Assembly: GCF_916618755.1 (NCBI RefSeq)
Contig: NZ_CAKAKB010000004.1
Coordinates: 248,001 to 312,000, forward strand
Direction of reading: 5' to 3'
Length of the DNA: 64,000 nucleotides
DNA from: Actinotalea sp. Marseille-Q4924
Lineage (GTDB): Bacteria; Actinomycetota; Actinomycetes; Actinomycetales; Cellulomonadaceae
Shown here: piece after piece, positions 5,660 through 44,869 of the stretch
Layout of the letters: each line of letters starts with the position of its first letter
Numbering within the stretch: position 1 is the stretch's first letter
Made by a program: the position numbers and the translations under genes
Notes under the pieces: model-generated
Seen by the model: only the letters and a program-made list of their open reading frames with translations
Database searches by the model: none
Told to the model about the DNA's origin: nothing

Positions 5660-5732
5660 GCGCCTGTAGCTCAGGGGATAGAGCACCGCTCTCCTAAAGC
5701 GGGTGTCGGCAGTTCGAATCTGCCCAGGCGCA
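5660..5732 (+). tRNA. tRNA-Arg (anticodon CCT)
   Basis: A full 73-nt cloverleaf is visible. The acceptor stem is GCGCCTG/CAGGCGC with discriminator A, the D stem GCTC/GAGC, the anticodon stem CCGCT/AGCGG around loop CTCCTAA (anticodon CCT), and the T stem GGCAG/CTGCC with loop TTCGAAT. The 3' CCA is not encoded. Its 3' half from the anticodon loop onward is repeated in degenerate form at three downstream places, which marks it as the integration target of the island. Confidence 0.97.
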
Positions 5733-5827
5733 CAAGGGTGTTTGTGCAGGTCAGAGGCGGTTCAGATGACCTAGGCGCAGGGGCCGCCTGGGGCCGTTTC
5801 GGGGCCGTGGTCAGCGCGTGGTCAGCG
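5691..5827 (+). repeat. attL-like site: tRNA core plus tandem GTGGTCAGCG arm
   Basis: The core is the tRNA 3' part from CTCCTAA (5691) through CACAAGGG (5738). At 5807-5827 two overlapping-register copies of GTGGTCAGCG occur with 11-bp periodicity, the same tandem motif that precedes each of the three downstream core copies. Paired direct repeats flanking a tRNA core are typical arm-type binding sites of tyrosine integrases. The rest of 5733-6063 has no gene. Confidence 0.7.
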
Positions 5828-6063
5828 ACTTGTCTCAGAAAGTGGACGGCTGTCAAGGGCATCGCGGATGGCCGCGGACTCAGCGAGCGTCGCTTGGGGT
5901 AGCACAGGCGTGGTCCCCGGTCTGGGCTCATGGTGGAGCGGTCGGCTGAGATCGTGGTCGACCTTCGGGGGTGACGGGCGTAGGGGTGCGCCCCTGCTCA
6001 GGCGAGCACGCTGGTCCGGAGTGCGCCGGGCAAGCCCAGCCAAGTCTTGGATAGTGTCAGTCC

Positions 6064-7803
6064 GTGACCTCGTCGAGCAAAGGCGCCGCGGCTTCACGCG
6101 CTGCCCGCCCCACCAAGCAGGAGATGTACGACCTCGTTGCGGAGCTCGCGACTCTAGATGAGGCGGGAGGTTTGGCCAAGGAGCGCTCAGTGCTCCTGTT
6201 GTGGTTTCTTCGGAACGTCGTCGGTGTAGACGACCTCGACGCCTATGAGTACATCTGCGATGGCGACGACGACTACGGCGTCGACGGCCTCTTCCTGGAA
6301 GCTGCGGCGGGCGATGGGCCTGAGACGCTCGTCGTATATCAGAGCAAGTACACCGAGGGCCCAACGAATGCGGGCCCAAATTCACTACATGGACTGATTT
6401 CCGCCGCATCCCACTTTTCCACAGTGGAGAACCTGGAATCGCTGCTTGCGGGCCGAATTGAGCCAAGGCTTCGGCGCCTCGTGGCCGAGTTCGACCTAAT
6501 CCGAAAACTTCGCGCGGGTGCGATCCGCGACGGCAAACTGCGGATCCGGATTGCGCTTGTCACTACAGGAGTACTCAACGCTCAGGCGAAGCGGCTTGTG
6601 GGGTCAACGAACGGGGATCGATGGAGCGGCTACCTTACGGTCTACGACCTCGGCCGCCTAGGCCCGCTTGCGCAGGCAGTGGCAACGCCCACCATTACGA
6701 CTTCCGACATCGTAGCTCCGTGCAAATCTAGTGAAAGAGTAGTCATCGGAGAGTCGCCAAACAGGGTTGTCATCGCTGCAGTGCGAGCTACAGATATCGT
6801 CAAGTGGGACGGAATCGAGACACGCGCGCTGTTCGAACTGAATGTTCGGCGGGAAGTCCGTCGAAATCGCGTGCGTGACCAACTCGATCGCGCAATCCGC
6901 CGACCGCACGAGCACAAGGACTTCTTGGCGTACCATAACGGGATGACGGTTGTGTGCGAATCGCTTGACCTGAAGAGGGGTTCGCTGGTCGCTAGGAAGC
7001 CGTCCGTTGTGAACGGGGCACAATCGACCATAGCCTTCGATCGCGCTGCGGCGGATGGCGAGCTGACGGAAGAGCTCCGAGTTTTCGTGAAGTTTGTGGA
7101 GGTCGCCCGTCGTCCGCAGTTGCAAAAGGAGATCTCCTGGCGCAGCAATACGCAGACAGCCGTTAACGCGCGTAACCTGGTCGCACTGGGGGGGCCGCAG
7201 CAACGCCTAGTCACGGAGTTCGGGGAGAGCTTCCCCGACATTACCTACGAGACTCGGCCCGACGCGACCCTGAGTCAATCGTCAGGATATGTAATCAAGA
7301 ACGATGACGCGGCGCAGTTGCTTTGTGCCGTGTTCAATGCGATGCCGTGGCTGGCGGTGAAGCGCCTTGCTCTCTTCGAGTCGGAGAACCACGCGATGAT
7401 CTTTAACGAGAGGATTACCGCGGCTCACGTGGTGCTAGCCGATCAGATAAAGAGGGCGGTCGAAGCGGGCAAGGACCGTGTGCCGGCGGTCTATCGCAAG
7501 AGTTGGCAGTTGAGCCGGATGGTCATGGTGTACTTGGTCGGTGAGGTCCTTCGGTCGGATGAGCGCCTGAGAGCGCTCCTCGAGTCGCCAGGCGCGCACG
7601 TCTCCGATGTGGGAGAGTTGGAAGATCGACTTAAGTTGCCAGTCCGTATCGCCGCGGCCACGCTTAAGCAGCGAAGTGACCAGAAGGAACGCGCGTCGGC
7701 TCCCGATGAGTTCAATGTGGAATTTAAGCGCCAGGATGTGCTACTTGATCTTCGCGACAAGGCTCGGGATAACTTCAGTCTTGCTGCCACGCTCGACGAC
7801 TAG
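6064..7803 (+). CDS. AIPR-family abortive-infection protein with nuclease-like N-terminus
   Basis: This 579-residue protein starts at GTG 6064. The central and C-terminal parts carry the AIPR landmarks HNGMTVV (291-297), PSVVNGAQS (about 313-321) and WRSNTQTAVNARNL. That domain was first noted in abortive-infection phage-resistance proteins. The N-terminus contains GVDG (Asp74) and VYQSKY (Gln93-x-Lys95), compatible with a PD-(D/E)xK/QxK restriction-like nuclease site that would supply toxicity or DNA cleavage. It is the first island gene after the tRNA and faces a convergent nuclease-like/methyltransferase pair, as expected in a defence island. Base composition and codon use are visibly less GC-rich than in flanking chromosomal genes, supporting transfer. 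The phage-defence role is inferred from family and context. Confidence 0.8.
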   Translation: MTSSSKGAAASRAARPTKQEMYDLVAELATLDEAGGLAKERSVLLLWFLRNVVGVDDLDAYEYICDGDDDYGVDGLFLEAAAGDGPETLVVYQSKYTEGPTNAGPNSLHGLISAASHFSTVENLESLLAGRIEPRLRRLVAEFDLIRKLRAGAIRDGKLRIRIALVTTGVLNAQAKRLVGSTNGDRWSGYLTVYDLGRLGPLAQAVATPTITTSDIVAPCKSSERVVIGESPNRVVIAAVRATDIVKWDGIETRALFELNVRREVRRNRVRDQLDRAIRRPHEHKDFLAYHNGMTVVCESLDLKRGSLVARKPSVVNGAQSTIAFDRAAADGELTEELRVFVKFVEVARRPQLQKEISWRSNTQTAVNARNLVALGGPQQRLVTEFGESFPDITYETRPDATLSQSSGYVIKNDDAAQLLCAVFNAMPWLAVKRLALFESENHAMIFNERITAAHVVLADQIKRAVEAGKDRVPAVYRKSWQLSRMVMVYLVGEVLRSDERLRALLESPGAHVSDVGELEDRLKLPVRIAAATLKQRSDQKERASAPDEFNVEFKRQDVLLDLRDKARDNFSLAATLDD

Positions 7804-7942
7804 ACGCATTCCGCCAAGTGGGCGGTCCTTGCTCCGCGACACCGAGTCGATGGGTGTCCTCGGCGTCGACGCAGATGCGCGGGTCGCATCGCGATTCGGG
7901 CGGGATGCCTGGTAGTGAGCCCACGGCCGCCAGGCCTTGTGC

Positions 7943-8989
7943 CTACTGCGCTTCCTTCAGTCGGCGCCGTGCCTGGGTGTGGAAGTTGACGGGTGTCGCA
8001 TCGAGTATGCGGGTGACCATCAGAGCTAAGAACCTCGATGGAGCGAGGTGCTGGGGGACCTGGTCATGCCTAAGGGTGACGGAGGGTAGCTGAGTGATCG
8101 CGACCTCGGCGGCAAGGCTCGCCTCAACGGCTGAATCGGACACTGGATCGCCGTCCGCCTCTTCGCTCGGGGCAGGCGCCAAACCAGCGGCCACAGCGGC
8201 GTCGTCGGCCGGGTCCAGGGCATCGTCACCGCCCTCCGCGATCGCGAGGGTGTCTGGGTACTCAATCATGACCAGGCATGTGGCGTGGTAAGCGTCGTCT
8301 TCACGCCCGAGCTTGCCCAGCAAGTCGATCAACCACGCGGCCGTGTCCGGTTCCTTCTCCAGGATGTCTGAGCGCAGGCCGAATACGAAGCCGAGCGCCG
8401 CCAGGGGGTGTCGTAGGCGAAGGTTCTTGGCATCGCCGTAGGACTCCTCGATGCGGTTCGGTGCGTTCTTGCCGTAGGAGGAATCCATGCGTTTTGTGGA
8501 GATGAGCAACTCGGGGCCCGAGTGCCAGTCCGTCATGATGACGTCGACCTGCTTCAGATAGTTCTTGCCAAGGATGCTGGCGCTCGCAGAGGTGACGCCA
8601 GGGATTGCGGAGCGGTGGGCCAGGCGCTGGGCTAGGGTGTCGCGGTCTTTCCGGGGTAACGACTTGAGCAACTTCGAGATCGGCATCGGGAGAATGCGAG
8701 GTTGAGTGGGGCGTGGCCACGCCGCGTCCGGGTCGAAGCCTGCCCGCCGAAGCTCGTAAGAGAGCCACACGTCAAGGGCGAGCGCCGGCACACCCGTGCG
8801 CGAGGTCGCGCCCAGATAAAGAGGGACCCCGAGCAGGCGGGTAAGGGTGGCGTAGTCGGGCACATAGGACGGGGCCCCATCCGCCCCGGCGATCCACGGG
8901 CTGGTGTGTACGCCATCCGGTGCCGCTTCGGCGACGATCCGGTCAAACAGCGCCCATGCATTTGTCTTCGCGCTCGGGTCAGTGGCCAC
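7943..8989 (-). CDS. Putative restriction endonuclease paired with methyltransferase
   Basis: This 348-residue protein starts at ATG 8989, inside the last codons of the upstream methyltransferase gene (11-bp overlap), so the two are translationally coupled. I do not recognise a named family. A PD-(D/E)xK-like arrangement is visible: Asp149 in QVDVIM, Glu160 in PELLIS and Lys166 in STKRMD, with an Arg/Glu-rich helix after it. Together with a dedicated N6-adenine methyltransferase this suggests the cleaving partner of a type II-like restriction-modification pair. The acidic low-complexity stretch near residues 260-295 looks like a linker. Functional assignment is by context; it could instead be a methyltransferase accessory protein. 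Confidence 0.6.
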   Translation of the reverse strand: MATDPSAKTNAWALFDRIVAEAAPDGVHTSPWIAGADGAPSYVPDYATLTRLLGVPLYLGATSRTGVPALALDVWLSYELRRAGFDPDAAWPRPTQPRILPMPISKLLKSLPRKDRDTLAQRLAHRSAIPGVTSASASILGKNYLKQVDVIMTDWHSGPELLISTKRMDSSYGKNAPNRIEESYGDAKNLRLRHPLAALGFVFGLRSDILEKEPDTAAWLIDLLGKLGREDDAYHATCLVMIEYPDTLAIAEGGDDALDPADDAAVAAGLAPAPSEEADGDPVSDSAVEASLAAEVAITQLPSVTLRHDQVPQHLAPSRFLALMVTRILDATPVNFHTQARRRLKEAQ

Positions 8990-10637
8990 TGCTCCCCCTG
9001 GCCTTTCGTCGATGCGCCATTGCGGACCGCGCGCGGCGGACCGCCTCGAGTTGCTGGCTCGATACGGCGCCGGGCTCGATCAGCAATGTCTCATCCACAA
9101 TTGCCACCGCAGCATCGAGATGACCCGCCCGGAGGTTTCGAGCTACACGAACGCGAACGGAGCGGAGGCGTTCCGCGCGGGAGGCGACGAGGACGGGCGA
9201 TGGCATCGCCCACGCGTCAGCTTCACGAGGTTCAATCTTGAGAACGCCGCCCCCGTAAGAACGCCCGACCATCTCGGCGTTCAGGAGCGTTACCGAGTTC
9301 AGGCTCGCGAGCGGCAGTAGTTCTCGACCAAGTGCCCGCAGGTCGTCAGACAGGTAGACGCCGTGGACGGAGTTCAGGTGGTACGCGTTCGCGTCGTTCG
9401 TGGTGAGCCGCGGAGTGTCAGCGTTCATGCAGGTGAGCAATAGGTCGGCGGGTGGGAGGAGGGGAACCCGATACCACTCCTTGCGGACGCGACATTTGTA
9501 GGCCTCGTGGACCCCGGCCCTCACGCCGACGTCGATGTATGCCTCGGCCTGTGCGGATGGTGTCGGTGCCGGCGAGAAGAGGTAGGTCGCTTTCCCTTGT
9601 GCTCCCAATCGCCCGAGCATGCCCCGGGAGAGAGCGAGGCCCCGCAGGTGTGAACTCCCAGGAGGGGACAATCGGAGGAGCTCACGCCGGGGCAGGCCGA
9701 GTTCGCGCACGCGAGCCGGCGAGAGGGTGAAGTACTTGTTGTTCCCTGTGACGATGCCGAGTGTCGTGTCTCCCCACTCCTCCAGCGTGGTGAACGCACC
9801 GTCCCCACGCAGGGCGTTGAGCGGTTCAACGGCAGCCGGTTCTACGAGGCTGGCGGTCCACTTCCCCTCCGGGTCGGTGGGGGTCCACGTCGACCCGGTC
9901 CCGAGTTGTAGGAGGTCCTCCGCGTTGCGCGCCTGGCGGATGATCGCGTGATCTGTCGGGCCCTGCTGGTACCCCGACGCCAGGAGCAGGACCACGTCGG
10001 CCTCGGCTTCAGGAAAGACCTGCTCGTCGAACAGTACGAGTTCGACCACACGGAATCGGTCGAAGAGGAACCGTCGGACCGGGGCCGCGTAATTGACCGA
10101 GAGGAGCTCTGCTGGAAGGACCAAGCCCAGCCGCCCTCCGTCCTTTAAGAACAGGGCGGAGTGCGCCGTGAACGCAGCCCAACTGGACGCAAGACCGGTT
10201 AGCGATACTCCAGCCCGTAGGGCCGCTTCGCGCGAACGTGCGCGGGAGTGCCCGGTGAAGTCCTGGTATCGGATGTATGGGGGATTTCCGATGACTGCGT
10301 CGTAGATCGGGCGCGGGGGCACCAGAAAGAAATCACCTTCGTCAACCTGAGGGATGCCGCCGGCGTCTCGGACTCGCTGCCGGGCTATGCGGGCGGAGGA
10401 GGGATGGAGCTCGACGCCGTCGACCACGGGCGTATGGGATGCGTCCGGTGCAAGTTGACGAAGACGGTCGACTGCGGCCACGAGGAAGGCGGCGTCGCCC
10501 GCCGCCGGTTCCAAGACCCTCTCGTTGGGACCACCGATCGCCCAACTGCTGATGAATCTCGTGATCACGTCGGGGGTGAAGAAGGCACCCCTTGCCTTCC
10601 TCATCGCGGGAGTGTCCACGACCTCCGAGCTGCTCAC
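8979..10637 (-). CDS. N6-adenine DNA methyltransferase (NPPY class)
   Basis: This SAM-dependent DNA methyltransferase has, counted from GTG 10637, the motif order FFTPDVITRF, LEPAAGD (SAM-binding motif I) and NPPYIRY (catalytic motif IV, near residue 118). A long C-terminal target-recognition half follows. The order is that of gamma-type Eco57I/N6_Mtase enzymes that protect adenines in restriction-modification systems. The frame stays open to an ATG at 10748, but GTG 10637 has a GAGAGG site 9 bp upstream and removes a basic, unfamily-like extension. The 3' end overlaps the nuclease-like gene by 11 bp. It lies between the integrase 3' end and the AIPR gene, i.e. cargo placed between attL and int. 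Confidence 0.85.
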   Translation of the reverse strand: MSSSEVVDTPAMRKARGAFFTPDVITRFISSWAIGGPNERVLEPAAGDAAFLVAAVDRLRQLAPDASHTPVVDGVELHPSSARIARQRVRDAGGIPQVDEGDFFLVPPRPIYDAVIGNPPYIRYQDFTGHSRARSREAALRAGVSLTGLASSWAAFTAHSALFLKDGGRLGLVLPAELLSVNYAAPVRRFLFDRFRVVELVLFDEQVFPEAEADVVLLLASGYQQGPTDHAIIRQARNAEDLLQLGTGSTWTPTDPEGKWTASLVEPAAVEPLNALRGDGAFTTLEEWGDTTLGIVTGNNKYFTLSPARVRELGLPRRELLRLSPPGSSHLRGLALSRGMLGRLGAQGKATYLFSPAPTPSAQAEAYIDVGVRAGVHEAYKCRVRKEWYRVPLLPPADLLLTCMNADTPRLTTNDANAYHLNSVHGVYLSDDLRALGRELLPLASLNSVTLLNAEMVGRSYGGGVLKIEPREADAWAMPSPVLVASRAERLRSVRVRVARNLRAGHLDAAVAIVDETLLIEPGAVSSQQLEAVRRARSAMAHRRKARGSSGH

Positions 10638-10757
10638 AGACGTCACCCTCTCATCATCGACTGACAGCAAGCAGCGGCGTTGTGCGACATGCCGCTCCAC
10701 CCGGTGTGTGCTTCGCGCGGGCAGCAGCGTTGCGGCCCGTCGGGCCATGGGTCAGGC

Positions 10758-11900
10758 CTACATCCCGATGCCGAGTGGGCCGCCCGGCACCGACTCCATA
10801 CCTGGGGTCGCCGCCAGCAGCGGGATCGCCGGCAGCCGCTCCATCGCCTGCCACGTCGCCTCGGAGAACAGGTGCCCGTACAGGTCCATCGTCATCGTCG
10901 CGGTGGAGTGCCCGAGGATCACCTGCACCGCCTTCACATCCGCCCCGGCCGCGATGAGGAGTGACGCGGCGGTGTGCCGCAGGTCGTGGATCGTCGTCCC
11001 CTCCACGCCCGCCGCCTTCGTCGCGTCCATCCACCGCGACCGCGCCCGGAAGTTGGTGTTCGTCCAGACCCCGCCGGTCGGGCTCGGGAACAGGTACGAG
11101 CCGGGGGCGGAACCGGCGACCCGCGTCCGCACGTACGCGTCCAGCGCCGCCGGCACCGGCACCGTCCGGGTCTGGTGCGTCTTTGTCGGCCCGAACACCG
11201 CCCCGCTGGTCCGCTTGGACTGCGTCGCCGCCCGGTGCACCCGCACGTCGAGCCCGTGCGGGGTCTGCACGACGTCGTCGACCCGCAGCGCCGCCATCTC
11301 GGAGAACCGGCACCCGGTCAGCCCGAGGAACAACACGACCGGCCGACACAGCTCCGGCATCGCCATGACGAGCCGACCGAGCTGCTCCGGTCGCAGCCAC
11401 CGCGGCTCGCGCTTGGTCCCACCGCGCGGCAGCGACACCATCCGCGCGACGTTCACCGACAGCCGCCGGTCCCGGATCGCGTAGTCGAACACCAGCCGGA
11501 TCATCGACAGCGCCCGCCGCCGCGTCGCCGTCGCCAGCCCGCGCGCCGTCAGCGCCGACATCACCCGCTCGACGTCGGCGGCCGAGATCCCGGAGATCGG
11601 GAACCCCCCGATCTCCGGGATGACGTACTTGTCCAGCAGGAACCGCGTGGTCTCCTGGCTGCGCACCGCCAGGTGACCACGCGAGGCCTGCCACTCCTCG
11701 GCCAGCGCCGCGAACGTCATCCGCCCACGCGCCGGGTCGATCCAGGAGCCGGCGTCCAGCCGCGCGAGCTGGTCCGCCTCCCACCGCTTGGCGTCGACCC
11801 GGCGCGAGAACGACCGCTGGACGATGACCCGACCCTCGAAGAAGACCTTCGCGCGCCAGGTCACCGTGCCCGACGGGAGCACCCGTTTGGTGACGGACAT
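10758..11900 (-). CDS. int: Tyrosine recombinase integrase
   Basis: This is a 380-residue phage/ICE-type integrase. Its layout is an N-terminal arm-binding region, a SAM-like core-binding domain (about 63-150), then a catalytic domain with Arg in TGCRFSEM (Arg198), Lys240 in PTKTHQ, HDLRH (His305, Arg308), GHS (His331) and the nucleophile Tyr341 in LYGH. All catalytic residues are present. ATG 11900 overlaps the excisionase stop by one base (TGATG), so the two are co-translated. It should recombine the tRNA-Arg core with the att modules described elsewhere. The much longer open frame continuing upstream through the relaxase region is spurious. Confidence 0.95.
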   Translation of the reverse strand: MSVTKRVLPSGTVTWRAKVFFEGRVIVQRSFSRRVDAKRWEADQLARLDAGSWIDPARGRMTFAALAEEWQASRGHLAVRSQETTRFLLDKYVIPEIGGFPISGISAADVERVMSALTARGLATATRRRALSMIRLVFDYAIRDRRLSVNVARMVSLPRGGTKREPRWLRPEQLGRLVMAMPELCRPVVLFLGLTGCRFSEMAALRVDDVVQTPHGLDVRVHRAATQSKRTSGAVFGPTKTHQTRTVPVPAALDAYVRTRVAGSAPGSYLFPSPTGGVWTNTNFRARSRWMDATKAAGVEGTTIHDLRHTAASLLIAAGADVKAVQVILGHSTATMTMDLYGHLFSEATWQAMERLPAIPLLAATPGMESVPGGPLGIGM

Positions 11901-12115
11901 CAGCGGCGCCGCGGCATCGTCGGCTCGCTGTCGACCCACGCCGCGGGGAGGAGGATCACCGTCCCGAGGCGCCGGCACGGGATCTGCTCGCGCTCGACCA
12001 GGTGGTAGAGCGTCCGGGGCGGCACGCCGAGGACCTCGGCGGCGTCCTTGACGCGGTAGAACCGCCGCGCCGGGGCGGGGAAGCCGTTCGAGGCGGGCTG
12101 CGACATCGTGGTCAT
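11900..12115 (-). CDS. xis: Excisionase-type helix-turn-helix protein
   Basis: This is a 71-residue protein with a MerR/excisionase-type winged helix: YRVKDAAEVLGVPPRTLYHLVEREQIPCRRLG. The recognition helix is followed by a wing strand (VILLPAAWV). It sits directly upstream of, and overlaps, the integrase, the standard arrangement in actinobacterial integrative elements. Such proteins bend att DNA and bias the integrase toward excision. It starts 37 bp from the relaxase stop, so relaxase, xis and int may form one transcript. Confidence 0.85.
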   Translation of the reverse strand: MTTMSQPASNGFPAPARRFYRVKDAAEVLGVPPRTLYHLVEREQIPCRRLGTVILLPAAWVDSEPTMPRRR

Positions 12116-15058: not shown

Positions 15059-15471
15059 CACGCGGCACCTCCTGCCCCAGGTCGCCATGCGTGCGATGGC
15101 GGTCTCAGTGACAGGTGTGCGGGAGGAGAGGAGAAGATTTCGCGGACCGTGCGAGCGCCTGCCGCGGAGGTGTGCGTGGCGCGGTCGGGGCGTCCGTGGC
15201 GGTGTCAGAGGTTGAGCGCCACCGCGGCCACGGCAGCGGCCAGCAGCCACGGGCCCAGTGCTGCGGTTCGCAGCCCTCGGGTCGCTGCGCCGGTAGCAAG
15301 GGACGGCTGTCCGACGGTCACGTAGAGACGCCAGCTCTCAGGGCTCGACGACCGGCCCTCTCAAGACCAGGTGTGGGAAGTCCGCGAAGACGCACAGCTA
15401 CGTTCTCCGGCGACGTGGCTCAGTCGAGGCGGCGGTGGCCGAAGCGCCGAGAGAGGCGGCAGGCTGGGGTG
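15059..15471. other. Gene-free region upstream of relaxase; candidate oriT/promoter
   Basis: No gene is supported here. About 54 bp upstream of the relaxase start is CAGGTGTGCGGG (15112-15123), followed by GGAGAAGAT (15130-15138). The same two blocks occur upstream of the truncated relaxase (19045-19056 and 19063-19071) at nearly the same distance. Conservation of non-coding DNA immediately upstream of two relaxases is what an oriT or a shared promoter would show; no nic site is identified. Confidence 0.4.
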
Positions 15472-28341: not shown

Positions 28342-28348
28342 CTACGGG

Positions 28349-31413: not shown

Positions 31414-31439
31414 CCGCCACCGAACCGACAGGACCCGCG

Positions 31440-32823: not shown

Positions 32824-32966
32824 GTGGTCAGCGCGTGGTCAGCGTGCGCCCCGGAATGGGGTCATCTGGCGAACTACCCGCGTGTAGTTCCGCAGGTCAG
32901 CGCGTTGCAGACGGACCAAGATCGAACTCCTAACGCGGCTGTCGCACGTGAGCCCTGCGCAGGCGC
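32824..32966 (+). repeat. att-like module 3 (arm, palindrome, partial tRNA core)
   Basis: Tandem GTGGTCAGCG repeats at 32824-32844. AACTAC CCGCGT GTAGTT, a perfect 6-6-6 palindrome, at 32872-32889. CTCCTAA at 32927, exactly 103 bp from the arm start, with 16 of the first 18 core positions matching the tRNA and a terminal CAGGCGCAC match near 32960. It separates the fructan locus from the GMC operon. Confidence 0.75.
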
Positions 32967-34245: not shown

Positions 34246-34249
34246 CCGC

Positions 34250-36016: not shown

Positions 36017-36099
36017 GCGACCTTCTGGCCCGCACCGCAAGCCCTGGCGTCACGTCGAGGGCCGGGCCCCGCACACCTTCACGCAAGGAGAGCGCCCCC

Positions 36100-37044
36100 A
36101 TGCACACGAACGCCCTGGGCAGGACCGGCCTGGACGTGACGCCGATCTGCCACGGCACCAGCCCGCTGGGGAACTTCCCGGCTCAGTACGGCTACGAGGT
36201 CGCAGAAGCACAGGCGGTCGCCACGATCCTGCGCGTCCTGGACGGACCCCTGAACTTCATCGACACCTCCAACAACTACTTCGACGCGGAGCGGCGGATC
36301 GGCCTCGCCCTGCGGGAGCGTGGGGGGCTGCCGGACGGGTTCGTCCTGGCGACCAAGGTCGACCCGGAGCACGGCAGCACCGACCTGTCCGGAGCCCGGG
36401 CCCGGGCTTCGGTCCAGGAGAGCCTGGAACGGCTCGGGCTCGACCACCTCCAGCTGGTCTACATCCACGACCCGGAGCTGCATGACTTCACCACGGCCAC
36501 GGGGCCGGGGGGCGTCGTCGAGGCCCTGGTCGGGATGCAGCAGGAGGGCCTGATCGACCACATCGGCGTTGCCGGCGGCCCCATCGACCTCATGCAGCGG
36601 TACGTCGACCTCGATGTCTTCCAGGCGGTCATCAGCCACAACCGGTTCACGCTGGTGGACCAGTCGGCGCACCCCTTGATCGAGCAGGTCGCCGCCAAGC
36701 GGATGGGGTTCGTAAACGGCGCGCCGTACGGCGGAGGGATGCTCGTCAAGGGTCCGGACGCCCACCCGAACTACTGCTACAGCCCGGCAAGCGAGGACAC
36801 GCGGGAGCGCGTGCGCGCCATGGAGCGGGCCTGCGCCGAGCACGGCGTCCCGCTGGCGGCAGCAGCGCTCCAGTTCTCCCTCCGCGAGCCGGGCATCGCC
36901 TCCACGATCGTCGGGATGTCTTCCCCCGAGCGGCTCGAGCAGACCCTCGAGCTCGCAGCGACCCCGATCACCGACGAGCTCTGGACGACGCTGGACGAGC
37001 TGGCCGCCGTGGGGCGCTCGGGCATCCCCGAGATGGCCTCGTGA
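36100..37044 (+). CDS. Aldo/keto reductase
   Basis: This 314-residue NAD(P)H-dependent TIM-barrel oxidoreductase starts at ATG 36100 with AAGGAG 9 bp upstream. Catalytic and cofactor features are visible: FIDTSNNYFDAERRIG (Asp, Tyr), LATKVD (Lys), YIHDPEL (His) and GMSSPERLEQTL (phosphate-binding loop). It resembles D-threo-aldose/L-fucose 1-dehydrogenase relatives that act on free sugars or their oxidised forms. Within the operon it likely acts on the same carbon source as the GMC enzyme, either reducing a keto product or oxidising a released aldose. Confidence 0.85.
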   Translation: MHTNALGRTGLDVTPICHGTSPLGNFPAQYGYEVAEAQAVATILRVLDGPLNFIDTSNNYFDAERRIGLALRERGGLPDGFVLATKVDPEHGSTDLSGARARASVQESLERLGLDHLQLVYIHDPELHDFTTATGPGGVVEALVGMQQEGLIDHIGVAGGPIDLMQRYVDLDVFQAVISHNRFTLVDQSAHPLIEQVAAKRMGFVNGAPYGGGMLVKGPDAHPNYCYSPASEDTRERVRAMERACAEHGVPLAAAALQFSLREPGIASTIVGMSSPERLEQTLELAATPITDELWTTLDELAAVGRSGIPEMAS

Positions 37045-37054
37045 GGAGGGTGAG

Positions 37055-38572
37055 ATGACCACGTCCCAAGTCGGCCCCGTCCTGAAGGTCCATGGCCTGA
37101 CCAAGCGGTACCCGGGCGTCACGGCCCTGGACGGTGTGGACCTCGAGGTCCACGCCGGGCAGGTGCTGTCGCTCTCGGGTGCCAACGGAGCGGGCAAGTC
37201 GACCCTGGTGAAGATCCTGTCGGGTGCGGAGCAGCCCGACGCCGGCTCGATCTGGATCGACGGGCGAGAGGTGCAGCTCGAGAGCCCGCACGCCGCCCGC
37301 CAGGCCGGCATCTACACGATCTACCAGGAGATGAGCCTGGTCCCGAGCATGTCCGTGGTCGAGAACATCTTCCTGGACGACTTCGCGAAGTCCGGTCTGG
37401 TCCGGATCGGTCGCCTGGAGAAGAGGGCGGAGCAGCTCATGGAGCGCCTCGGCGCCCCGGTGGACGTCCGCGCGCCGGTCGCCTCGCTGCCCCTGGCCAA
37501 GCAGCAGCTCGTGGAGATCGCCAAGGCGCTGAAGTCCGAGCCGCACGTCCTGCTCCTGGACGAGCCGACGACGACGCTGCCACCGCGGGACGTCAGCGGC
37601 CTGCTCAATCTCATGCGCGACCTCGCCGCTTCGGGCGTCGGGTTGATCTTCGTCTCTCATCGTCTCGACGAGGTGACGGCCGTGTGCGACGCCGTCGACG
37701 TCCTGCGAGACGGCCGGCGGGTCGCGCACTTCGACACCGTCCCGGACGCCCACGCGATCGTGCGGCAGATGGTCGGGGACCGCTACGAGAACTCCCTCGC
37801 GGCGGCCGCCGCGGAGGGTTCGGAGGGCAAGCTCGGAGGGGTCGCGACGTCCGACGTCGTGCTGGAGGTGCGGGACCTCACCGAGGGCCACCGGCTGCAC
37901 CCGTGCTCCTTCGAGCTGCGGCGCGGGGAGGTGCTCGGCATTACCGGGCTCCTCGGTGCCGGGCAGAACGAGCTGGCCGAGTGCCTCTTCGGGCTGCGCG
38001 AGCCCTCCGGCGGAACGGTCGCGGTCGAGGGACGCCAGGTGCGTGTGCGCTCCCCGCGCGCCGCGATCCGCAGAGGTCTCGGCCTGATCCCGGAGGACCG
38101 CAAGTCCCAGGGACTGGTCCTCGACATGAGCGCGAGCAAGAACATGAGCCTGGCGTCCCTTGGGATGTTCACCCGGGCCGGTCTGCTCGACCACTCCCGC
38201 GAGTCTCGGCACGCTCGGACCAAGGTCGACGAGCTCGGCATCAAGTGCAGCAGTGTCCACCAGTCGGTGCGGACCATGAGCGGCGGCAACCAGCAGAAGG
38301 TGCTTCTGGCCCGCTGGCTCACGAAGAACAGCAAGGTTCTCATCCTCGCCGAGCCCACACGAGGCGTGGACGTCGCAGCCAAGGAAGAGATCTACCGGCT
38401 GATCCGTGCCTACCTGCGGTCGGGAGGTGCGGCCGTCCTCGTCACCTCCGAGGTGGCCGAGGCCGCGCTGTGCGACCGCGTCCTGGTGCTGTCCAACGGG
38501 CGCATCGTCGCCGAAGCCACCCACGAGGAGATCCAGTCCCAGCAGCAGGACCTCCTCACCCACCTCCGATGA
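37055..38572 (+). CDS. Sugar ABC importer ATPase (RbsA type, two NBDs)
   Basis: This 505-residue protein has two nucleotide-binding domains. NBD1: Walker A SGANGAGKSTL, Walker B HVLLLDEPTTTL. NBD2: degenerate Walker A GLLGAGQNEL, signature MSGGNQQKVLLARWL and ILAEPTRGVDV. The last has Ala where the Walker B Asp of RbsA-type NBD2 is usual. It starts at ATG 37055, ten bp after the aldo/keto reductase. It energises uptake of a monosaccharide-type ligand together with the following permease and binding protein. The NBD2 substitution may weaken Mg coordination there. Confidence 0.92.
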   Translation: MTTSQVGPVLKVHGLTKRYPGVTALDGVDLEVHAGQVLSLSGANGAGKSTLVKILSGAEQPDAGSIWIDGREVQLESPHAARQAGIYTIYQEMSLVPSMSVVENIFLDDFAKSGLVRIGRLEKRAEQLMERLGAPVDVRAPVASLPLAKQQLVEIAKALKSEPHVLLLDEPTTTLPPRDVSGLLNLMRDLAASGVGLIFVSHRLDEVTAVCDAVDVLRDGRRVAHFDTVPDAHAIVRQMVGDRYENSLAAAAAEGSEGKLGGVATSDVVLEVRDLTEGHRLHPCSFELRRGEVLGITGLLGAGQNELAECLFGLREPSGGTVAVEGRQVRVRSPRAAIRRGLGLIPEDRKSQGLVLDMSASKNMSLASLGMFTRAGLLDHSRESRHARTKVDELGIKCSSVHQSVRTMSGGNQQKVLLARWLTKNSKVLILAEPTRGVDVAAKEEIYRLIRAYLRSGGAAVLVTSEVAEAALCDRVLVLSNGRIVAEATHEEIQSQQQDLLTHLR

Positions 38573-38598
38573 CCCGCCCCGACCCCCAGGAGGAACTC

Positions 38599-39792
38599 AT
38601 GTCGGTCTCTTCTCGGAGCACCGCACCCCCGCACCGCGCCGGGCAAGACCCTGCCCCGACGGGCACCGGTCGTGCGCGGCGCCGATTCAGGATCGGACCG
38701 CAGGGCTACCTGCTGGCCGTGTTCGTGCTTGTCGCGGTCGTCGGGTCCATGACGTCGCCGTTCTTCTTCACGGCGCGCAACCTGGAGAACATCGCCGTGG
38801 CGGCCTCGGTGGTCGCGGTCCTGGGCGTCGCTCAGTTCATCGTGGTCGTCACCCGGGGGATCGACCTCTCGGTCGGTTCCGTCGCCGCGCTGTCCACGGT
38901 CATCGCGGCCGTGATGCTGCGGCAGGGCCAAGGCGTGCTCGTGACCGTCGTGGTCGCTCTTCTCGCGTGCTCGCTGGCCGGGCTGATCAACGGACTCCTG
39001 GTCGTCTACGCCCGGATCGCGCCGTTCGTGGCCACCCTCGCGATGCTCAGCATCGCCCGCGGCGTCGCGTTCCTCGTGCAGGTCGGGACGCTGATCGTCA
39101 TCAGCAACACCACGTTCCTCAACCTCTTCGGGGGCCGGACCGGCTCGGTCCCGAACGGGGTCATCATCGCCGTGATCGTGACGGTCGTCGCGGCGTTCGT
39201 CATGAAGTTCACCCCGCTGGGCCGGCGGCTGTATGCGCTAGGCGGCAACCCGGAAGCCGCCCGTCTCTCCGGGCTGCCGGTCAAGCGGGACCAGGTCATG
39301 GCCTACGTCACCAGCGGCCTGCTCGCCGGCCTGGCCGGGCTGATGCTCGCCGGTCGTCTCTCCCAGGGCAGCTCGCTCGTCGGTCAGGGCTACGAGCTGG
39401 ACTCCATCGCCGCCACCGTCGTCGGCGGGACGTCGCTCTTCGGCGGGACCGGCGACCCGATCAGCACCGTCCTCGGCGCTCTCATCATCGGGATGATCGG
39501 CAACATCATGAACCTGGCCGGCATCCAGTCCGAGCCGCAGCTCGTGATCCGCGGGCTGGTCATCCTCATCGCCGTCTTCCTCACCTCCGGGGGCGGGATC
39601 CAGCGGATCCGCGACGGCGTCACCAAGCTCCGGGCCCGCGGCTCCGGTGCTCCCAGTGGCGACGAGACGCTCGCCGCCCCAGCTCTCCCAGCTGCCGAGA
39701 ACACCCCCACCTCGCGGCGGCCCGACCTCCAGGAAGGCAATACTCCCCACCCTCCCGCTCGACGACCCGACAGCACGGAAGGAACTCACTGA
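38599..39792 (+). CDS. Sugar ABC importer permease (RbsC type)
   Basis: This 397-residue permease starts at ATG 38599 after AGGAGGAAC. About eight to ten membrane segments are visible. It carries the RbsC/BPD_transp_2 pattern VVVTRGIDLSVGSVAALS, then YALGGNPEAARLSG and VGGTSLFGGTGDP. The long N-terminal leader and C-terminal tail (about 60 residues rich in Pro, Ser and Arg) are cytoplasmic and poorly conserved. The stop overlaps the next gene start by one base, so it is tightly coupled to the binding protein. Confidence 0.92.
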   Translation: MSVSSRSTAPPHRAGQDPAPTGTGRARRRFRIGPQGYLLAVFVLVAVVGSMTSPFFFTARNLENIAVAASVVAVLGVAQFIVVVTRGIDLSVGSVAALSTVIAAVMLRQGQGVLVTVVVALLACSLAGLINGLLVVYARIAPFVATLAMLSIARGVAFLVQVGTLIVISNTTFLNLFGGRTGSVPNGVIIAVIVTVVAAFVMKFTPLGRRLYALGGNPEAARLSGLPVKRDQVMAYVTSGLLAGLAGLMLAGRLSQGSSLVGQGYELDSIAATVVGGTSLFGGTGDPISTVLGALIIGMIGNIMNLAGIQSEPQLVIRGLVILIAVFLTSGGGIQRIRDGVTKLRARGSGAPSGDETLAAPALPAAENTPTSRRPDLQEGNTPHPPARRPDSTEGTH

Positions 39793-40859
39793 TGCGCACA
39801 ACGACGCGCGGCATCGCCCTCGGCAGTGTCCTCGCACTCTCCCTCGCACTCTCCGCCTGCGCAGAAGGCGGCGACGCCGACGGGGGCGCCGCTCCCGACG
39901 ACGGCAACGGCGCGACAGCCGGCGACGCCGGCTCCGGCGACACGATCACGATCGGCTTCTCCCAGCGGCGGCTCGCCGGCAGCGACTGGTGGGCCACGCT
40001 CCTCCAGGGTGCGGAGGACAAGGCCGAGGAGCTCGGTGCCGAGATCATCGTCACCGACGCCGGTGGCGACACCGTCAAGCAGAACTCCGACGTGCAGACG
40101 CTCCTCACCCAGGGCGTGGACGTCGTCATCATGAATCCGCACGACCCCACCGGGGTGGCGCCCGCCGTCACCGCGGTGGCGCAGGACGACGTGCCCCTCG
40201 TCGTGGTCAACAGCAACCTCTCCGAGGAGCTCGCGCCCCAGCAGTTCTGCTACGTCGCCGAGGACCAGGAGGCGGTCGCGTTCGGACTCGGGGAGCAGAT
40301 CGCCGAGTTCGCCAAGGAGCGGTTCGGTGACGAGGCGGTCAAGGCCGTCGTCGTCGGCGGCTACTCGGGCGAGACCGTCACCACGTGGCGCCACGACGGC
40401 GTCGTCGCCGGGTACGAGAGCGTGGCGGACGCCCCCGAGATCGAGTACCTGCCGATCCGGTACGGCGAGTGGCTGCCGGACCGGGCGCTGGACCCCGTGC
40501 GCGACATCGCGACCGCCAACCCCGACCTGGACATCGTCTTCAGCCTCAGCGACGTGATGCTCCCGGGGATCAAGCAGGGTCTCTCGGACGCCGGGATCCT
40601 GGACCAGGTGCTCATCGGCACCTACGACGGCCAGATGGCCGTGCTGAAGGAGATGATGGACAACCCGGACGGGCCGGTCCAGGCCAACGCGTCCAACGAG
40701 CCCTACCGCCAGGGTGAGACCGCGGTCGAGATGGCGGTCGCCGCCGCTCGTGGCGAGTCGCAGGAGGACGTGTGCCCCGGCGGTGAGTTCTGGATCGACA
40801 CCTTCCTGGCGACTCCGGACAACGCCGAGCAGTACTACGACCCGAACCGTCAGTTCTGA
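39792..40859 (+). CDS. Sugar-binding lipoprotein (RbsB-like)
   Basis: This 355-residue periplasmic-binding-protein-family lipoprotein has a signal peptide ending in LALSAC (Cys23), then an acidic Gly/Asp linker. The mature part begins TITIGFSQRRLAGSDWWATLL and carries DVVIMNPHDPTGVAPAV and IVFSLSDVMLPGIKQGL, as in ribose/galactose-type binding proteins. It starts at ATG 39792 overlapping the permease stop (TGATG). It catches the sugar substrate at the outer membrane face. A strong hairpin follows 41 bp downstream. Confidence 0.92.
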   Translation: MRTTTRGIALGSVLALSLALSACAEGGDADGGAAPDDGNGATAGDAGSGDTITIGFSQRRLAGSDWWATLLQGAEDKAEELGAEIIVTDAGGDTVKQNSDVQTLLTQGVDVVIMNPHDPTGVAPAVTAVAQDDVPLVVVNSNLSEELAPQQFCYVAEDQEAVAFGLGEQIAEFAKERFGDEAVKAVVVGGYSGETVTTWRHDGVVAGYESVADAPEIEYLPIRYGEWLPDRALDPVRDIATANPDLDIVFSLSDVMLPGIKQGLSDAGILDQVLIGTYDGQMAVLKEMMDNPDGPVQANASNEPYRQGETAVEMAVAAARGESQEDVCPGGEFWIDTFLATPDNAEQYYDPNRQF

Positions 40860-40900
40860 CGTCCCACCGGGGCGGGCCGGTGTCCGTCCCCACCCTCGCC

Positions 40901-40935
40901 GTCTCCTTCCGCCCGGCACCCGGGCGGAAGGAGAC
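40901..40935 (+). terminator. Hairpin after binding-protein gene
   Basis: GTCTCCTTCCGCCCG pairs perfectly with CGGGCGGAAGGAGAC (15 bp, 5-nt loop). It lies between the binding protein and the amidase-like gene. Likely a partial terminator within the operon, or an operon end with the next gene separately transcribed. Confidence 0.75.
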
Positions 40936-40994
40936 CGGCCCCAGCCAGCACCCCGCGGCGCAGTCGAGTCTGCGCCACCACAGAAGGAGCACTC

Positions 40995-42137
40995 ATGGTC
41001 GACCCGTACTCCGTCGTCGCTCTCTCCCCGCGCACGTTCCAGATGAAGGAGCGTCAGGACGGGGTCGAGAACGTCAAGCGGATCAACAAGTTCATGGACA
41101 CGGCAGTCATGGTCGGGGCGTGGGAAGGAGCCCCCGTCCGTCTGGTGGTCATCCCGGAGATGGCGATCCAGGGGATGATCGCCAACATTCCCGGGAACCG
41201 CGACAAGGAGAAGCACTTCGCGGTCACCATCCCCGGCCCGGAGACCGATGAGCTGGCGAAGAAGGCCGTCCAGCTCGACACCTACATCGCAGCCGAGCTG
41301 TACATGGTGAAGGACCCGGACTTCGAGGACCGCTACTTCAACGTGGCGTTCATCATCGACCCGAGCGGGGAGATCGTCTACCAGCGCGCCAAGGCGACGT
41401 CCGACGCCTACGAGGGCGGCATGCTCGGCAACATGAACCCGCACGACGTGTGGGACGAGTGGATCGCCAAGAAGGGCAACGGGAACGTGATGGACGCGAT
41501 CTTCCCGGTCGCCCGGACCGAGATCGGCAACATCGGTATCGCGATCTGCCACGAAGGGGTCTATCCCGAGGTCGCTCGAGGGCTGGCGATGAACGGCGCG
41601 GAGATCATCATCCGGCCCACGCTCATCGAGCCCGCCGTGATGACGGGGATGTGGGAGATCCAGAACCGTGCGCACGCGCTGTTCAACCACGCCTACGTCG
41701 TGGCACCGAACCTCGGCCCGGAGATCATGCCCGACGGGGGCATGCAGGACCTCTTCGGTGGCCAGTCGATGATCGTGAACCCCCGTGGGCAGATCGTCGC
41801 CCAGCAGAAGGGCTGGACGTCCGGCGACTCGTTCGTCTGCACCACGATCGACATCGAGGCACTCCGCCGGTCCCGGATCGCCAACGGTCTGTACAACCAG
41901 TTCAAGGACCTGCGAACTGAGCAGTACCGGGCCATCTACGACCAGCCGATCTACCCGAAGAACCAGTACCTCGAGGAGCCCCCGGGCGAGGGCTGGCTGG
42001 CTCGCGAGGACGCGACCCGTGCTCGGAACATCGAGACGCTGATCGAGCGGGGCGTGCTCACCCCGCCGACCGGCTACCGCCGCAACGGCGACACGACCCC
42101 CGTGTCGGACACGACCGAGAAGGTCGTCGGCTCCTGA
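40995..42137 (+). CDS. Carbon-nitrogen hydrolase (nitrilase/amidase superfamily)
   Basis: This 380-residue cytoplasmic protein starts at ATG 40995 with GAAGGAG upstream. The Glu-Lys-Cys triad of the superfamily is present: VIPEMAIQG (Glu), YQRAKATSDA (Lys) and GIAICHEGVYPE (Cys). EIIIRPTLIEP and a trailing helix-rich C-terminus resemble aliphatic amidases and N-carbamoyl hydrolases rather than true nitrilases. Its place in a sugar-oxidation operon implies that the substrate contains an amide or similar C-N bond, perhaps on a modified sugar. The precise reaction cannot be stated. Confidence 0.88.
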   Translation: MVDPYSVVALSPRTFQMKERQDGVENVKRINKFMDTAVMVGAWEGAPVRLVVIPEMAIQGMIANIPGNRDKEKHFAVTIPGPETDELAKKAVQLDTYIAAELYMVKDPDFEDRYFNVAFIIDPSGEIVYQRAKATSDAYEGGMLGNMNPHDVWDEWIAKKGNGNVMDAIFPVARTEIGNIGIAICHEGVYPEVARGLAMNGAEIIIRPTLIEPAVMTGMWEIQNRAHALFNHAYVVAPNLGPEIMPDGGMQDLFGGQSMIVNPRGQIVAQQKGWTSGDSFVCTTIDIEALRRSRIANGLYNQFKDLRTEQYRAIYDQPIYPKNQYLEEPPGEGWLAREDATRARNIETLIERGVLTPPTGYRRNGDTTPVSDTTEKVVGS

Positions 42138-42141
42138 GCCG

Positions 42142-42187
42142 GTGGTGTGCCGGGTCAGCACCTCCTCCGTGACCCGGCACACCACCC
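42142..42187 (+). terminator. Strong 17-bp hairpin after C-N hydrolase
   Basis: GGTGGTGTGCCGGGTCA pairs perfectly with TGACCCGGCACACCACC around a 12-nt loop, four bp after the stop codon. Probable terminator; the following dehydrogenase gene has its own strong ribosome site. Confidence 0.8.
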
Positions 42188-42269
42188 CCAGACCTCTCCG
42201 CGCGACCGGGCTGTGCACCCGCGGCCGCGGTCGTGCCGACCGAACGACAGACTCACTGGAGGCGATGAG

Positions 42270-43310
42270 ATGACCGACCTGCGAGTGGTCGTCTGCGGCA
42301 TGGGCCGCTGGGGCAACCAGTGGATGGATGTCCTTGGGCATCAGCCCGGTGTCGTCCTCGCCGGGACCGCCGGCGGCACCGTCCGCTCGCGGCCCGCTGG
42401 GCTGCGGGTGACGCCCGGTTACCGTCACCACAGGGACGCGGCCAGCATGCTGTCCACCGTCGAGGCGGACGTCGCCCTCATCACCCTGCCCGTCGGTCGG
42501 CATGCCGAGGCGATCGAGCAGGCGCTCTCGGCCGGCATGTCCGTGCTGTGCGAGAAGCCTCTCGTCGTGGACGCCGAGGACCTCGAACGGGTGCGTGCCG
42601 CGGCTGCTGCCCACCCGGAGCTCGCCGTCGTCGTGGGTCAGAACTACAGGCACCGTCCGTGGGCCCGCCGGGCCAGGGACCTCATCACCAACGGCCTGGT
42701 CGGCACGGTCGGCCACCTTTCCCTGCGCTTCAGCCGCCGGGAGTTCCTGGAGGGTGGGCGGAACGAGCTCCGTTCCCCGCTGCTCCAGGACATGAGCGTG
42801 CACCACCTCGACCTCATCCGGTACCTCACCGGCGCAGAGGCCCTCGAGGTGCACGCCCTCGAGCACCGCCCACCCTGGAGCCTCTTCGCGGGCGCACCTG
42901 CGGTCGAGGTCGCGCTCCAGATGTCCGACGGTTCACTCGCCACCTACTCCGGGACGTGGGCGGGTCGTGGGCCCGAGACGACATGGGACGGTGAGGTCAC
43001 GGTCCACGGCGAGCACGGCACCCTGCAGGTGCGCGACGGACGCTTCACCCTCGACGGCGAGCCCGTTGACGACGTCGGTCCGGATGGGCGACTGCCGCAG
43101 GACGATCCGGAGCACAGCGGAGATCCCGATCTGCACTCCGTTCTTCGCGACTTCCGGCGAGTCGTGCACGACGGCGCCGTAGCGGAGACCGGTCTCCGGG
43201 ACAATCAGCACACGATCGAGCTGCTCCTGGCCGTTCAGCAGGCGGCCTGGACCGGGCGTCCCGTTGCCCTGCCCGGCCCAGCCGAGATCCCGGAACCGAG
43301 TCATGGGTAG
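42270..43310 (+). CDS. Gfo/Idh/MocA-family oxidoreductase
   Basis: This 346-residue NAD(P)-dependent sugar/inositol dehydrogenase-type protein starts at ATG 42270 with CTGGAGG upstream. The N-terminal Rossmann fold is LRVVVCGMGRWGNQWMDVL. VLCEKPLVVDAEDLE is the conserved EKP motif, whose Lys is catalytic. QNYRHRPWARRARDLI and DMSVHHLDLIRYLTG provide the substrate-pocket Asp/His residues. Such enzymes oxidise or reduce a ring hydroxyl/keto group of sugars, consistent with an oxidised-sugar pathway begun by the GMC enzyme. Confidence 0.9.
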   Translation: MTDLRVVVCGMGRWGNQWMDVLGHQPGVVLAGTAGGTVRSRPAGLRVTPGYRHHRDAASMLSTVEADVALITLPVGRHAEAIEQALSAGMSVLCEKPLVVDAEDLERVRAAAAAHPELAVVVGQNYRHRPWARRARDLITNGLVGTVGHLSLRFSRREFLEGGRNELRSPLLQDMSVHHLDLIRYLTGAEALEVHALEHRPPWSLFAGAPAVEVALQMSDGSLATYSGTWAGRGPETTWDGEVTVHGEHGTLQVRDGRFTLDGEPVDDVGPDGRLPQDDPEHSGDPDLHSVLRDFRRVVHDGAVAETGLRDNQHTIELLLAVQQAAWTGRPVALPGPAEIPEPSHG

Positions 43311-43376
43311 CCTCGTGGCCGGCGAGCACCGCTTCCTCGTGGCTTACAGGGGGCCGGATCCTGAGAGGCAGGGGCG

Positions 43377-44591
43377 ATGACAGTCGAAGGCGAGCCCAAG
43401 CCGCGAACGGGGGGACGTCGGACGTCCCCCGATCAAGCCGAGGACCATCGCTACGGAGGAGCCGACGCGGACGACGGTCGCGTCCGGTCGCGCCGCAGGC
43501 AGGCTCCGCGCATGAGCGACGTCGCTCGGCTGGCGGGCGTCTCCCCTCAGACCGTCTCCCGTGTCCTCAACTCGAGCCCGTATGTGAGCGACCAGGCAAG
43601 GCAGAAGGTCGAACGCGCGGTCCGCGACCTCGACTACCGGCGGAACCGCGCTGCTCGAGCCCTCGTCACCAGCCAGACGATGCACCTCGGCGTCGTCACG
43701 GTCGGGACGACGCAACACGGTCCGTCACAGGCGCTCTTCGGCATCGCCGAGCGGGCCCGCGAGCTGGGGTACGCGACCAGTCTCGTCAGTCTCGGCGACA
43801 CCAACCGTTCCGCCATGCAACGTGCGCTCGACCACCTGGTGTCAGACGCCGTCGACGGGATCGTGGTCCTGGCGCCGACCGTGGCAGCTGCTGACGCGGT
43901 CGAAGGGCTCTCCGCCGCAGTCCCGCTGGTCATGTTCGAACCGGGGGCCACGGACCATCCGCGCATCGTGGCCCATGACGAGGTGATGGGTGCGCACGAG
44001 GCGACCACGTACCTGCTGCAGCTCGGCCATCCCACGGTCCACCACCTGGCAGGTCCGGCAGGGTGGCTGGGAACGACCGCCCGGATCGAGGGCTGGCGGC
44101 GCGCCCTCGCCATAGCCGGGCGCGTGGCCCACGAGCCACTGGCGGGTGACTGGAGCGCGGCCTCCGGCCATGCCGTCGGCCTCAGGCTCCTTCAGCGCGC
44201 TCGACCCACTGCGGTCTTCGTCGCGAACGACCAGATGGCTCTCGGGTTGCTCAAAGCGGCCTCCGACCTCGGACTTCGCGTTCCCGAGGACCTGAGCGTC
44301 GTGGGGTTCGACGACATCCCGGAAGCCCAGTACTTCCAGCCGGCCCTCACGACGATGCACCTGGACTTCATGGAGGTGGGCCGGCGGTGCGTGGACCGTG
44401 TCATCCAGCTCATCCGCGGCAGCGAGACAGGACCCGAGCCAGTGATGGCTCCCTACCTGGTCCCGCGTCTGAGTGCGGGCCGGTATGTCGAGTCGCTCGA
44501 CGGGCCGCAGCAACGTCTCGAGCCCGCGGCACTCGCAACGCCGGCGGGCGAACGTGACGCCGGGTCTGTCGCACGGGTAGGTGACACCTGA
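43377..44591 (+). CDS. LacI-family regulator of the GMC/sugar operon
   Basis: This 404-residue regulator starts at ATG 43377. An internal ATG 43512 (MSDVARLAGVSPQTVSR...) would give a classical N-terminus and removes a basic 45-residue extension. The HTH (VARLAGVSPQTVSRVLNSS) and hinge (RAARALVTSQTMHLGVV) are followed by a sugar-binding-type effector domain (DGIVVLAPT, VFVANDQMALGLL, VVGFDDIPEAQYF). It is the last gene before the final att module. The palindrome at 33456-33469 is its most likely operator. Confidence 0.9.
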   Translation: MTVEGEPKPRTGGRRTSPDQAEDHRYGGADADDGRVRSRRRQAPRMSDVARLAGVSPQTVSRVLNSSPYVSDQARQKVERAVRDLDYRRNRAARALVTSQTMHLGVVTVGTTQHGPSQALFGIAERARELGYATSLVSLGDTNRSAMQRALDHLVSDAVDGIVVLAPTVAAADAVEGLSAAVPLVMFEPGATDHPRIVAHDEVMGAHEATTYLLQLGHPTVHHLAGPAGWLGTTARIEGWRRALAIAGRVAHEPLAGDWSAASGHAVGLRLLQRARPTAVFVANDQMALGLLKAASDLGLRVPEDLSVVGFDDIPEAQYFQPALTTMHLDFMEVGRRCVDRVIQLIRGSETGPEPVMAPYLVPRLSAGRYVESLDGPQQRLEPAALATPAGERDAGSVARVGDT

Positions 44592-44718
44592 TCTGTGCGC
44601 GCCGCTCCTCGCCGGGGCAGGCGCCGCGGTTGAGTCATAGGCTCGCCCGCGGTAAGTCGTTGAGGACCTCATGGCCTGCTCGTGCGCGGTCTTCGAGCCC
44701 AGGCCTAATTGTGGCGCC

Positions 44719-44869
44719 GTGGTCAGCGTGTGGTCAGCGGGGACCGCGAGACGTTGGCAGATCGTGAACTACCCGCGTGTGGTTCCGCAGGTGAGAGAGT
44801 TTTGGACGGACCAAGATCGAACTCCTAAAGCGGGCGTCGGCAGCTCGAATCTGACTAGGCACAAGGGCT
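44719..44869 (+). repeat. att-like module 4 (arm, palindrome, near-complete tRNA core)
   Basis: Tandem GTGGTCAGCG at 44719-44739. AACTAC CCGCGT GTGGTT (palindrome with one mismatch) at 44767-44784. tRNA core from CTCCTAA at 44822, again 103 bp from the arm. The core agrees with the tRNA-Arg 3' part in all but six of 48 positions and has a 2-nt deletion in the acceptor strand. It is the best-preserved distal site, hence the likely right end (attR) of the whole island. Confidence 0.78.

Follow-up and report, generated by a model that had tools for sequence, protein, structure and literature searches.

The gene for tRNA-Arg(CCT) in Actinotalea sp. Marseille-Q4924 is followed by an array of similar attachment modules, most of which lie in the 64,000-nucleotide stretch of contig NZ_CAKAKB010000004.1 analysed here (positions 248,001 to 312,000 of the forward strand, hereafter the window). 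The array is best read as the tandem accretion, at this one gene, of decayed segments resembling cis-mobilizable elements (CIMEs) together with one intact-looking element, a reading to which we give a probability of about 0.8. According to this reading, tRNA-Arg(CCT) would be the bacterial attachment site (attB) of an integrase family, whose element-borne site (attP) would have an 18-bp core flanked by two arm pairs, P lying 103 bp ahead of the core and P′ about 115 bp past its start. The elements would be small integrative mobilizable elements (IMEs) encoding an integrase (Int), a helix-turn-helix (HTH) protein acting as excisionase (Xis) and a TrwC relaxase, often with defence cargo. Each insertion would restore the tRNA gene from the element's own copy of its 3′ half and push older DNA outward. 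At least four insertions would thus have accumulated in this genome: the youngest would be the one adjoining the tRNA, having kept P′, an open Int gene and the relaxase, while the older three would persist as catabolic blocks with the distal P-core end alone, that is, as decayed, CIME-like segments. That Int moved the elements, that events followed this order, and how the proximal (P′) ends were lost are inferences.

Attachment modules behind tRNA-Arg(CCT)

The tRNA-Arg(CCT) gene, identified by ARAGORN, lies at 5660..5733 on the plus strand, as do all the sites described in this section, and a match to it was found in 55 of the 55 genomes probed. Its attL core, CTCCTAAAGCGGGTGTCG (5691..5708), is common to the tRNA and the modules and is followed 116 bp after its start by a P′ arm pair (5807..5827), which falls 113–118 bp past the core start in 39 of the 47 loci tabulated. 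Further downstream, P arm pairs at 25237..25257, 32824..32844 and 44719..44739 each precede by 103 bp a degenerate copy of the core, at 25340..25357 (attR1, 13/18 match to the tRNA), at 32927..32944 (attR2, 16/18) and at 44822..44863 (attR3), where a 17/18 core is extended by the tRNA 3′ half to a match of 88% over 42 bp. The positions of these cores and arms, and both the 103-bp and the 116-bp distances, had been proposed in a sequence-only reading and were found correct on re-checking. That reading counted three downstream modules; the three are real, but the total is four, since a further arm pair with one mismatch lies outside the window at window coordinate 69985 and is followed by an 18/18 core at the same 103-bp step (attR4).

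The tandem arm consists of GTGGTCAGCG twice, 11 bp apart. Single decamers (at most one mismatch) are frequent in this GC-rich window, with 33 occurrences against a mean of 12 and a maximum of 20 in 100 shuffles, and it is the tandem, not the single decamer, that is the specific feature. Over the whole genome (3,643,543 bases, at most two mismatches), the tandem occurs at five places, all on the plus strand between C4:253807 and C4:318005 and all within 64 kb behind tRNA-Arg(CCT), and the reversed pattern has no occurrence under the same settings. This genome-wide count, confined to one strand and one region, rejects a chance origin. Similarity between the modules spans arm, spacer and core, with four matches in the own genome (E 5e-39 to 1e-17). 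Compared with 20,000 random windows, the tRNA 3′ half past the core stands out at attR3 (p 1e-4), and its signal is weak at both attR2 (p 0.004) and attR1 (p 0.012). The four modules are 72–87% alike and no closer to each other than to modules of other species; because they differ by 13–28%, their recent duplication in place is rejected. A phage origin is not supported either, an exact scan of viral contigs having returned no tandem, which is weak evidence.

A module family tied to one tRNA gene

Of the 34 stretches returned by an exact scan of 84,980 species genomes, 19 carry the label Cellulomonas or Actinotalea. In many, the arm is accompanied by spacer, core and tRNA 3′ half, and the tRNA-side arm is present in some; others, L018, L022, L024 and L031 among them, contain decamers without any arm-spacer-core context. 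One natural module (L050) has matches in 49 of the 221 genomes of the family Cellulomonadaceae (own genome counted), among them 13 of the 19 from the genus, and per-genome module counts are lower bounds, as three candidates were scored per genome and three of the four known ones were recovered here. Outside this genome, 52 module matches were obtained, 43 on the same contig as the tRNA and nine on other contigs. All but one of the 43 sit 3′ of the tRNA at a distance of 2.0–23.4 kb, and 41 of these 42 share its orientation; seven of the nine lie too close to a contig end (0 to 11 kb) to be judged. The sequence-only reading had named dispersal far from tRNA-Arg as the result that would speak against it; 42 of the 45 testable modules are instead found no more than 24 kb 3′ of this gene, which establishes the link between module and tRNA across the family.

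The arm-to-core step is 103 bp in 31 of the 35 modules measured, i.e., those of 46 scored modules whose arm matches the profile almost in full, and 101–102 bp in the other four. Equal spacing had first been put forward as the argument for successive insertion. However, it reflects the inherited geometry of one attP family and on its own is no proof of separate events; support for successive site-specific insertion at this gene comes from the attR family, its tRNA link, arms that track the integrase clade, stacked junctions in other genomes and comparison with a congener. In all 17 loci whose Int is at least 86% identical to that of the window, the P′ arm ends in G, whereas it ends in A in eight of nine loci whose Int is 73–77% identical. 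The arm sequence thus tracks the integrase clade, as expected if Int binds the arms, a pattern that shared ancestry could also explain. The anatomy recalls the attP of mycobacteriophage L5.

The 47 loci tabulated were mostly chosen for holding a module and give no measure of frequencies in the population: similarity to Int is present in 31 (some with fragments only), TrwC in 21 (own locus counted) and a P′ profile match at the tRNA in 39. The Int-HTH-TrwC trio recurs across family loci, and few cargo genes are common among the 24 islands compared. PADLOC, applied to 20 proteins (four from this window; seven of the 20 without match), found type I restriction, Lamassu LmuA/LmuB, Dsr1, ThsA and E1-E2/JAB proteins. 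It is thus well supported by these comparisons that the modules represent the attR of an IME family tied to this tRNA and characterised by a tyrosine integrase, a small HTH protein, a TrwC relaxase and, often, defence cargo. The family may be undescribed in the library searched: no description was found among the papers listed in a search of the Cellulomonas literature, the only one aimed at it, with island databases outside its scope.

A second element is present in G004 (C1:93391-105955; L172, L178). It shares the P-core module, but the identity of its integrase is 30.5% and that of its TrwC 74%. It lies more than 100 kb from any tRNA-Arg on its contig and is followed by a LacI gene cluster whose distance behind tRNA-Arg is 15 kb in G078 and 33 kb in G009.

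Evidence for accretion

Stacking of elements at one tRNA predicts inner junctions of the form P-core-P′. Such a succession is found at 12 of 42 modules outside this genome (P′ profile, E<0.05), seven at about 1e-5 or better and five weak. In G003, the arms are missing, the P′ flank is kept, and a second Int and a TrwC remnant lie behind. In G005, a whole element comprising P′, Int, HTH, TrwC and P-core (C257:35400-52100; L214) stands behind a degenerate P-core (E 9e-4). To judge from these junctions, plain stacking does happen in this element family. About 35 kb of tRNA-free contig precedes the complete-looking element of G005, possibly another long array.

For this genome, the inserted state is shown by comparison with the congener G004. 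Beginning 76 bp past a core, its DNA is 90.5% identical to positions 70287–74337 here, which start 182 bp past the fourth core. DNA that follows the fourth module here therefore sits close behind a core in G004, so that the intervening 64.4 kb is inserted. Consistently, a gene of SNF2 type, located at 86.2 kb in window coordinates here, lies 0.3 kb behind the tRNA in G042 and about 1.9 kb behind it in G006; no attR was found on looking at the SNF2 boundary (86 kb).

The element next to the tRNA and the catabolic blocks

Block 1, bounded by attL and attR1, opens with an AIPR/AbiU-like defence gene (6064..7803, plus strand; PF10592 3e-18, PADLOC AbiU 2.7e-18). On the minus strand follow a putative restriction endonuclease (7943..8989), so called solely from its place beside a methyltransferase and without Pfam or PADLOC match; the type II DNA methyltransferase itself, of Eco57I type in Pfam and PADLOC scans (8979..10748); the tyrosine integrase of 380 aa (10758..11900; PF00589 7e-20), with relatives in 38 of 221 family genomes at E≤1e-60 (own counted); a 71-aa HTH_17 protein (11900..12115; PF12728 4e-8), which is likely the excisionase and has relatives beside Int in other loci; and the TrwC/MobF relaxase (12152..15250; PF08751 2e-87). 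Beyond these lie a fragment of a second TrwC gene (18573..19005, minus strand) and a HigB-like toxin gene with an HTH_3 gene (22829..24235, plus strand). Block 1 has its own integrase and attL/attR1, as expected of an IME, and TrwC is present; mating genes were not seen among the genes scanned, no dedicated search having been made. Positions 21263–22426 encode a DUF6791-ThiF protein, E1-like and without PADLOC match, a 48% relative of which is cargo of the G035 island; it is possibly a defence gene.

Block 2 (25421..32702) encodes a LacI regulator, an ABC sugar transporter, a DUF2961 protein and GH32, and its families suggest a fructan-type cluster. A collinear homologue (25443–32702, with one gap) is found in G066 and most of the cluster in G067 and G090, all from other genera; the DUF2961 protein occurs in nine of 221 family genomes at E≤1e-150 (own counted). 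Block 3 (33713..44591) contains a GMC oxidoreductase, an aldo-keto reductase, parts of a sugar ABC transporter, a CN hydrolase, a Gfo/Idh/MocA protein and LacI. Block 4 (44949..64000, continuing to attR4) encodes LacI, PfkB, BtpA, a Bmp/ABC transporter, PTE and a nucleoside hydrolase; it is composed of the LacI-PfkB-BtpA part and a nucleoside-type cluster at about 49.3–69.7 kb, homologues of which are present in G004, G006, G103, G104, G108 and G013. Its Bmp protein is found in nine of 221 family genomes at E≤1e-110 (own counted).

Objections to accretion and alternative explanations

Several observations weigh against the accretion reading. The most direct concerns P′, no trace of which follows any of the four cores of this genome: the best match to the arm there has 8–9 mismatches (random windows: median 9, 5% point 7), and a P′ profile search gave no match at the four junctions. 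The absence of P′ at every junction departs from plain accretion, and slow decay would be expected to affect both sides of a module. At attR4, the tRNA 3′ half past the core is not seen (p 0.11 in the random-window test). Blocks 2–4 contain no tyrosine integrase, the only match on contig C4 being that of block 1, and no relaxase was seen among those of their genes scanned, a set short of every open reading frame. In other genomes, clusters homologous to blocks 2 and 4 stand without modules as far as the stretches fetched extend, although G066 does have a module, on another contig than its block 2 homologue. The G004 core used for comparison is on a separate contig from the tRNA, and the two G004 contigs look as if they ended in opposite ends of a single insertion sequence, with a repeat of 8 bp. 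Three of the 45 testable modules are away from the tRNA: that of G057 lies 1.3 Mb from it, and those of G004:C1 and G005:C257 are preceded by 105 kb and about 52 kb of tRNA-free contig, respectively.

The composition of block 1 is a further difficulty. The methyltransferase MT25 (16727..17710, minus strand) is found right of the module in G002, G008, G010, G012 and G078, and together with its neighbour in G018; the stretch 19156–19631 is right of the module in G046. These comparisons show block 1 to be a mosaic, not the product expected of plain stacking, and it looks like an element joined to DNA from the right flank of this tRNA in a donor, together with the right end of another element. A second MT25 copy (C4:351699-352622), beyond the SNF2-type gene, is 88% identical over the aligned part, whereas the near copy is 91% identical to the MT25 of G008, in a tree that is weakly supported. 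The second copy was considered as a pseudogene, which is rejected since both stops precede the likely start. At window coordinates 86224–104600 (G000), the SNF2-type gene, its neighbours and MT25 have an order reversed relative to G008, with the same strands.

The mosaic and the missing P′ led us to consider composite mobilization and deposit. In such a scheme, an element would excise between its attL and a distal P-core instead of its own attR, thereby carrying flanking chromosomal DNA, here catabolic clusters, into a new host, insert at the tRNA of that host and later leave by recombination between attL and its own attR; the passenger block would stay behind with one P-core and no P′. This would account for junctions that all lack P′ though their P modules, at 91–117 bits, score within the 60–128 bits of matches in other genomes (the profile was trained on the latter, so the own scores are out of sample and the others in sample). 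It would also account for the presence in block 1 of MT25, its neighbour and 19156–19631, and for the second, diverged MT25 elsewhere in the genome. On the other hand, blocks 2 and 4 match clusters that are not known as flanks of tRNA-Arg, the MT25 phylogeny is not firm, no intermediate was found, and the one other candidate left end without P′, in G052, reads by eye as a decayed P′. We consider such deposit by the integrase unlikely, though it is the most serious competitor. If true, it would generate an array of one-armed operon segments, re-mobilizable at any length from one shared attL.

It is more doubtful still that the blocks arrived as non-autonomous operon cassettes, i.e., gene-cluster circles with a single P-core that a trans-acting integrase would insert at the tRNA in a somewhat integron-like manner. 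Block 2 is indeed one cluster fitted between modules, its homology (25443–32702) starting after the core end at 25357 and stopping before the next arm at 32824. However, no island with a single cassette and an intact tRNA junction is present among the 47 loci, the three loci without P′ at the tRNA (G016, G066 and G007) carry insertion-sequence-like DNA there as judged by eye, and the scheme presupposes that this integrase can act on an attP with one arm only. Finally, if the modules had nothing to do with integration and were a dispersed or regulatory repeat, this would explain why P arms are kept where no integrase gene adjoins and why three of 45 stand away from the tRNA, but this is very improbable given that the other 42 are by the tRNA, that the core equals the tRNA, that the arms vary with the integrase, and that the exceptions G004:C1 and G005:C257 sit with an Int-TrwC pair and G057 has an integrase 28% identical alongside.

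Relation to known systems

Accretion with decayed segments is already a known phenomenon, of which the tRNA-Arg(CCT) array would be a further example. The tandem accretion of CIMEs, IMEs and integrative and conjugative elements, as set out in PMC5704250, starts as proposed here with site-specific integration; elements then decay to segments that have lost their integration and transfer genes, and others integrate alongside at the same site. Blocks 2–4 resemble CIMEs in that no integration or transfer genes were found in them (serine recombinases not searched, not every open reading frame scanned) and in that they retain attR, with P-core modules at E 5e-31, 6.5e-27 and 3.5e-34. A CIME by definition keeps both attL and attR (PMC5704250), whereas these blocks keep the P-core side only and have no attL, i.e., no core with P′. 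The ssrA islands of Dehalococcoides, in the account of them given in PMC3146451, are similarly arranged in tandem within 100 kb downstream of one RNA gene and carry metabolic cargo; 15 of 31 have no integration module. They use a CcrB-like serine recombinase, in contrast to the tyrosine integrase, arm sites and TrwC relaxase found here. Actinomycete integrative and conjugative elements (AICEs) likewise form stacks at tRNA genes, one of them a tRNA-Arg of Streptomyces avermitilis, and are recognised by FtsK/SpoIIIE transfer and replication domains, as described in PMC3218068; neither an FtsK/SpoIIIE transfer protein nor a replication initiator was seen among the block-1 proteins scanned, small open reading frames being outside that scan.

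A single tRNA gene can in this manner become a growing store of accessory functions, with defence on the intact-looking element and, behind it, the use of sugars and nucleosides. As a family whose arm sites vary with the integrase, the elements constitute a natural series for studying how integrases recognise their arms, and what becomes of proximal ends during accretion can be tested at the junctions that lack P′.

Insertion-sequence-like DNA recurs at these attachment sites. In L028 (G097) and in L065 and L068 (G004), the attP spacer stops after GTTATCC and continues into such DNA, with an 8-bp repeat in G004. In L136, L206 and L210 (G016, G066 and G007), the P′ region stops after about 12 bp into similar DNA, as judged by eye; P′ there looks cut by it, and these loci were rejected as natural islands without P′, as was G052, in view of the decayed P′ in its flank.

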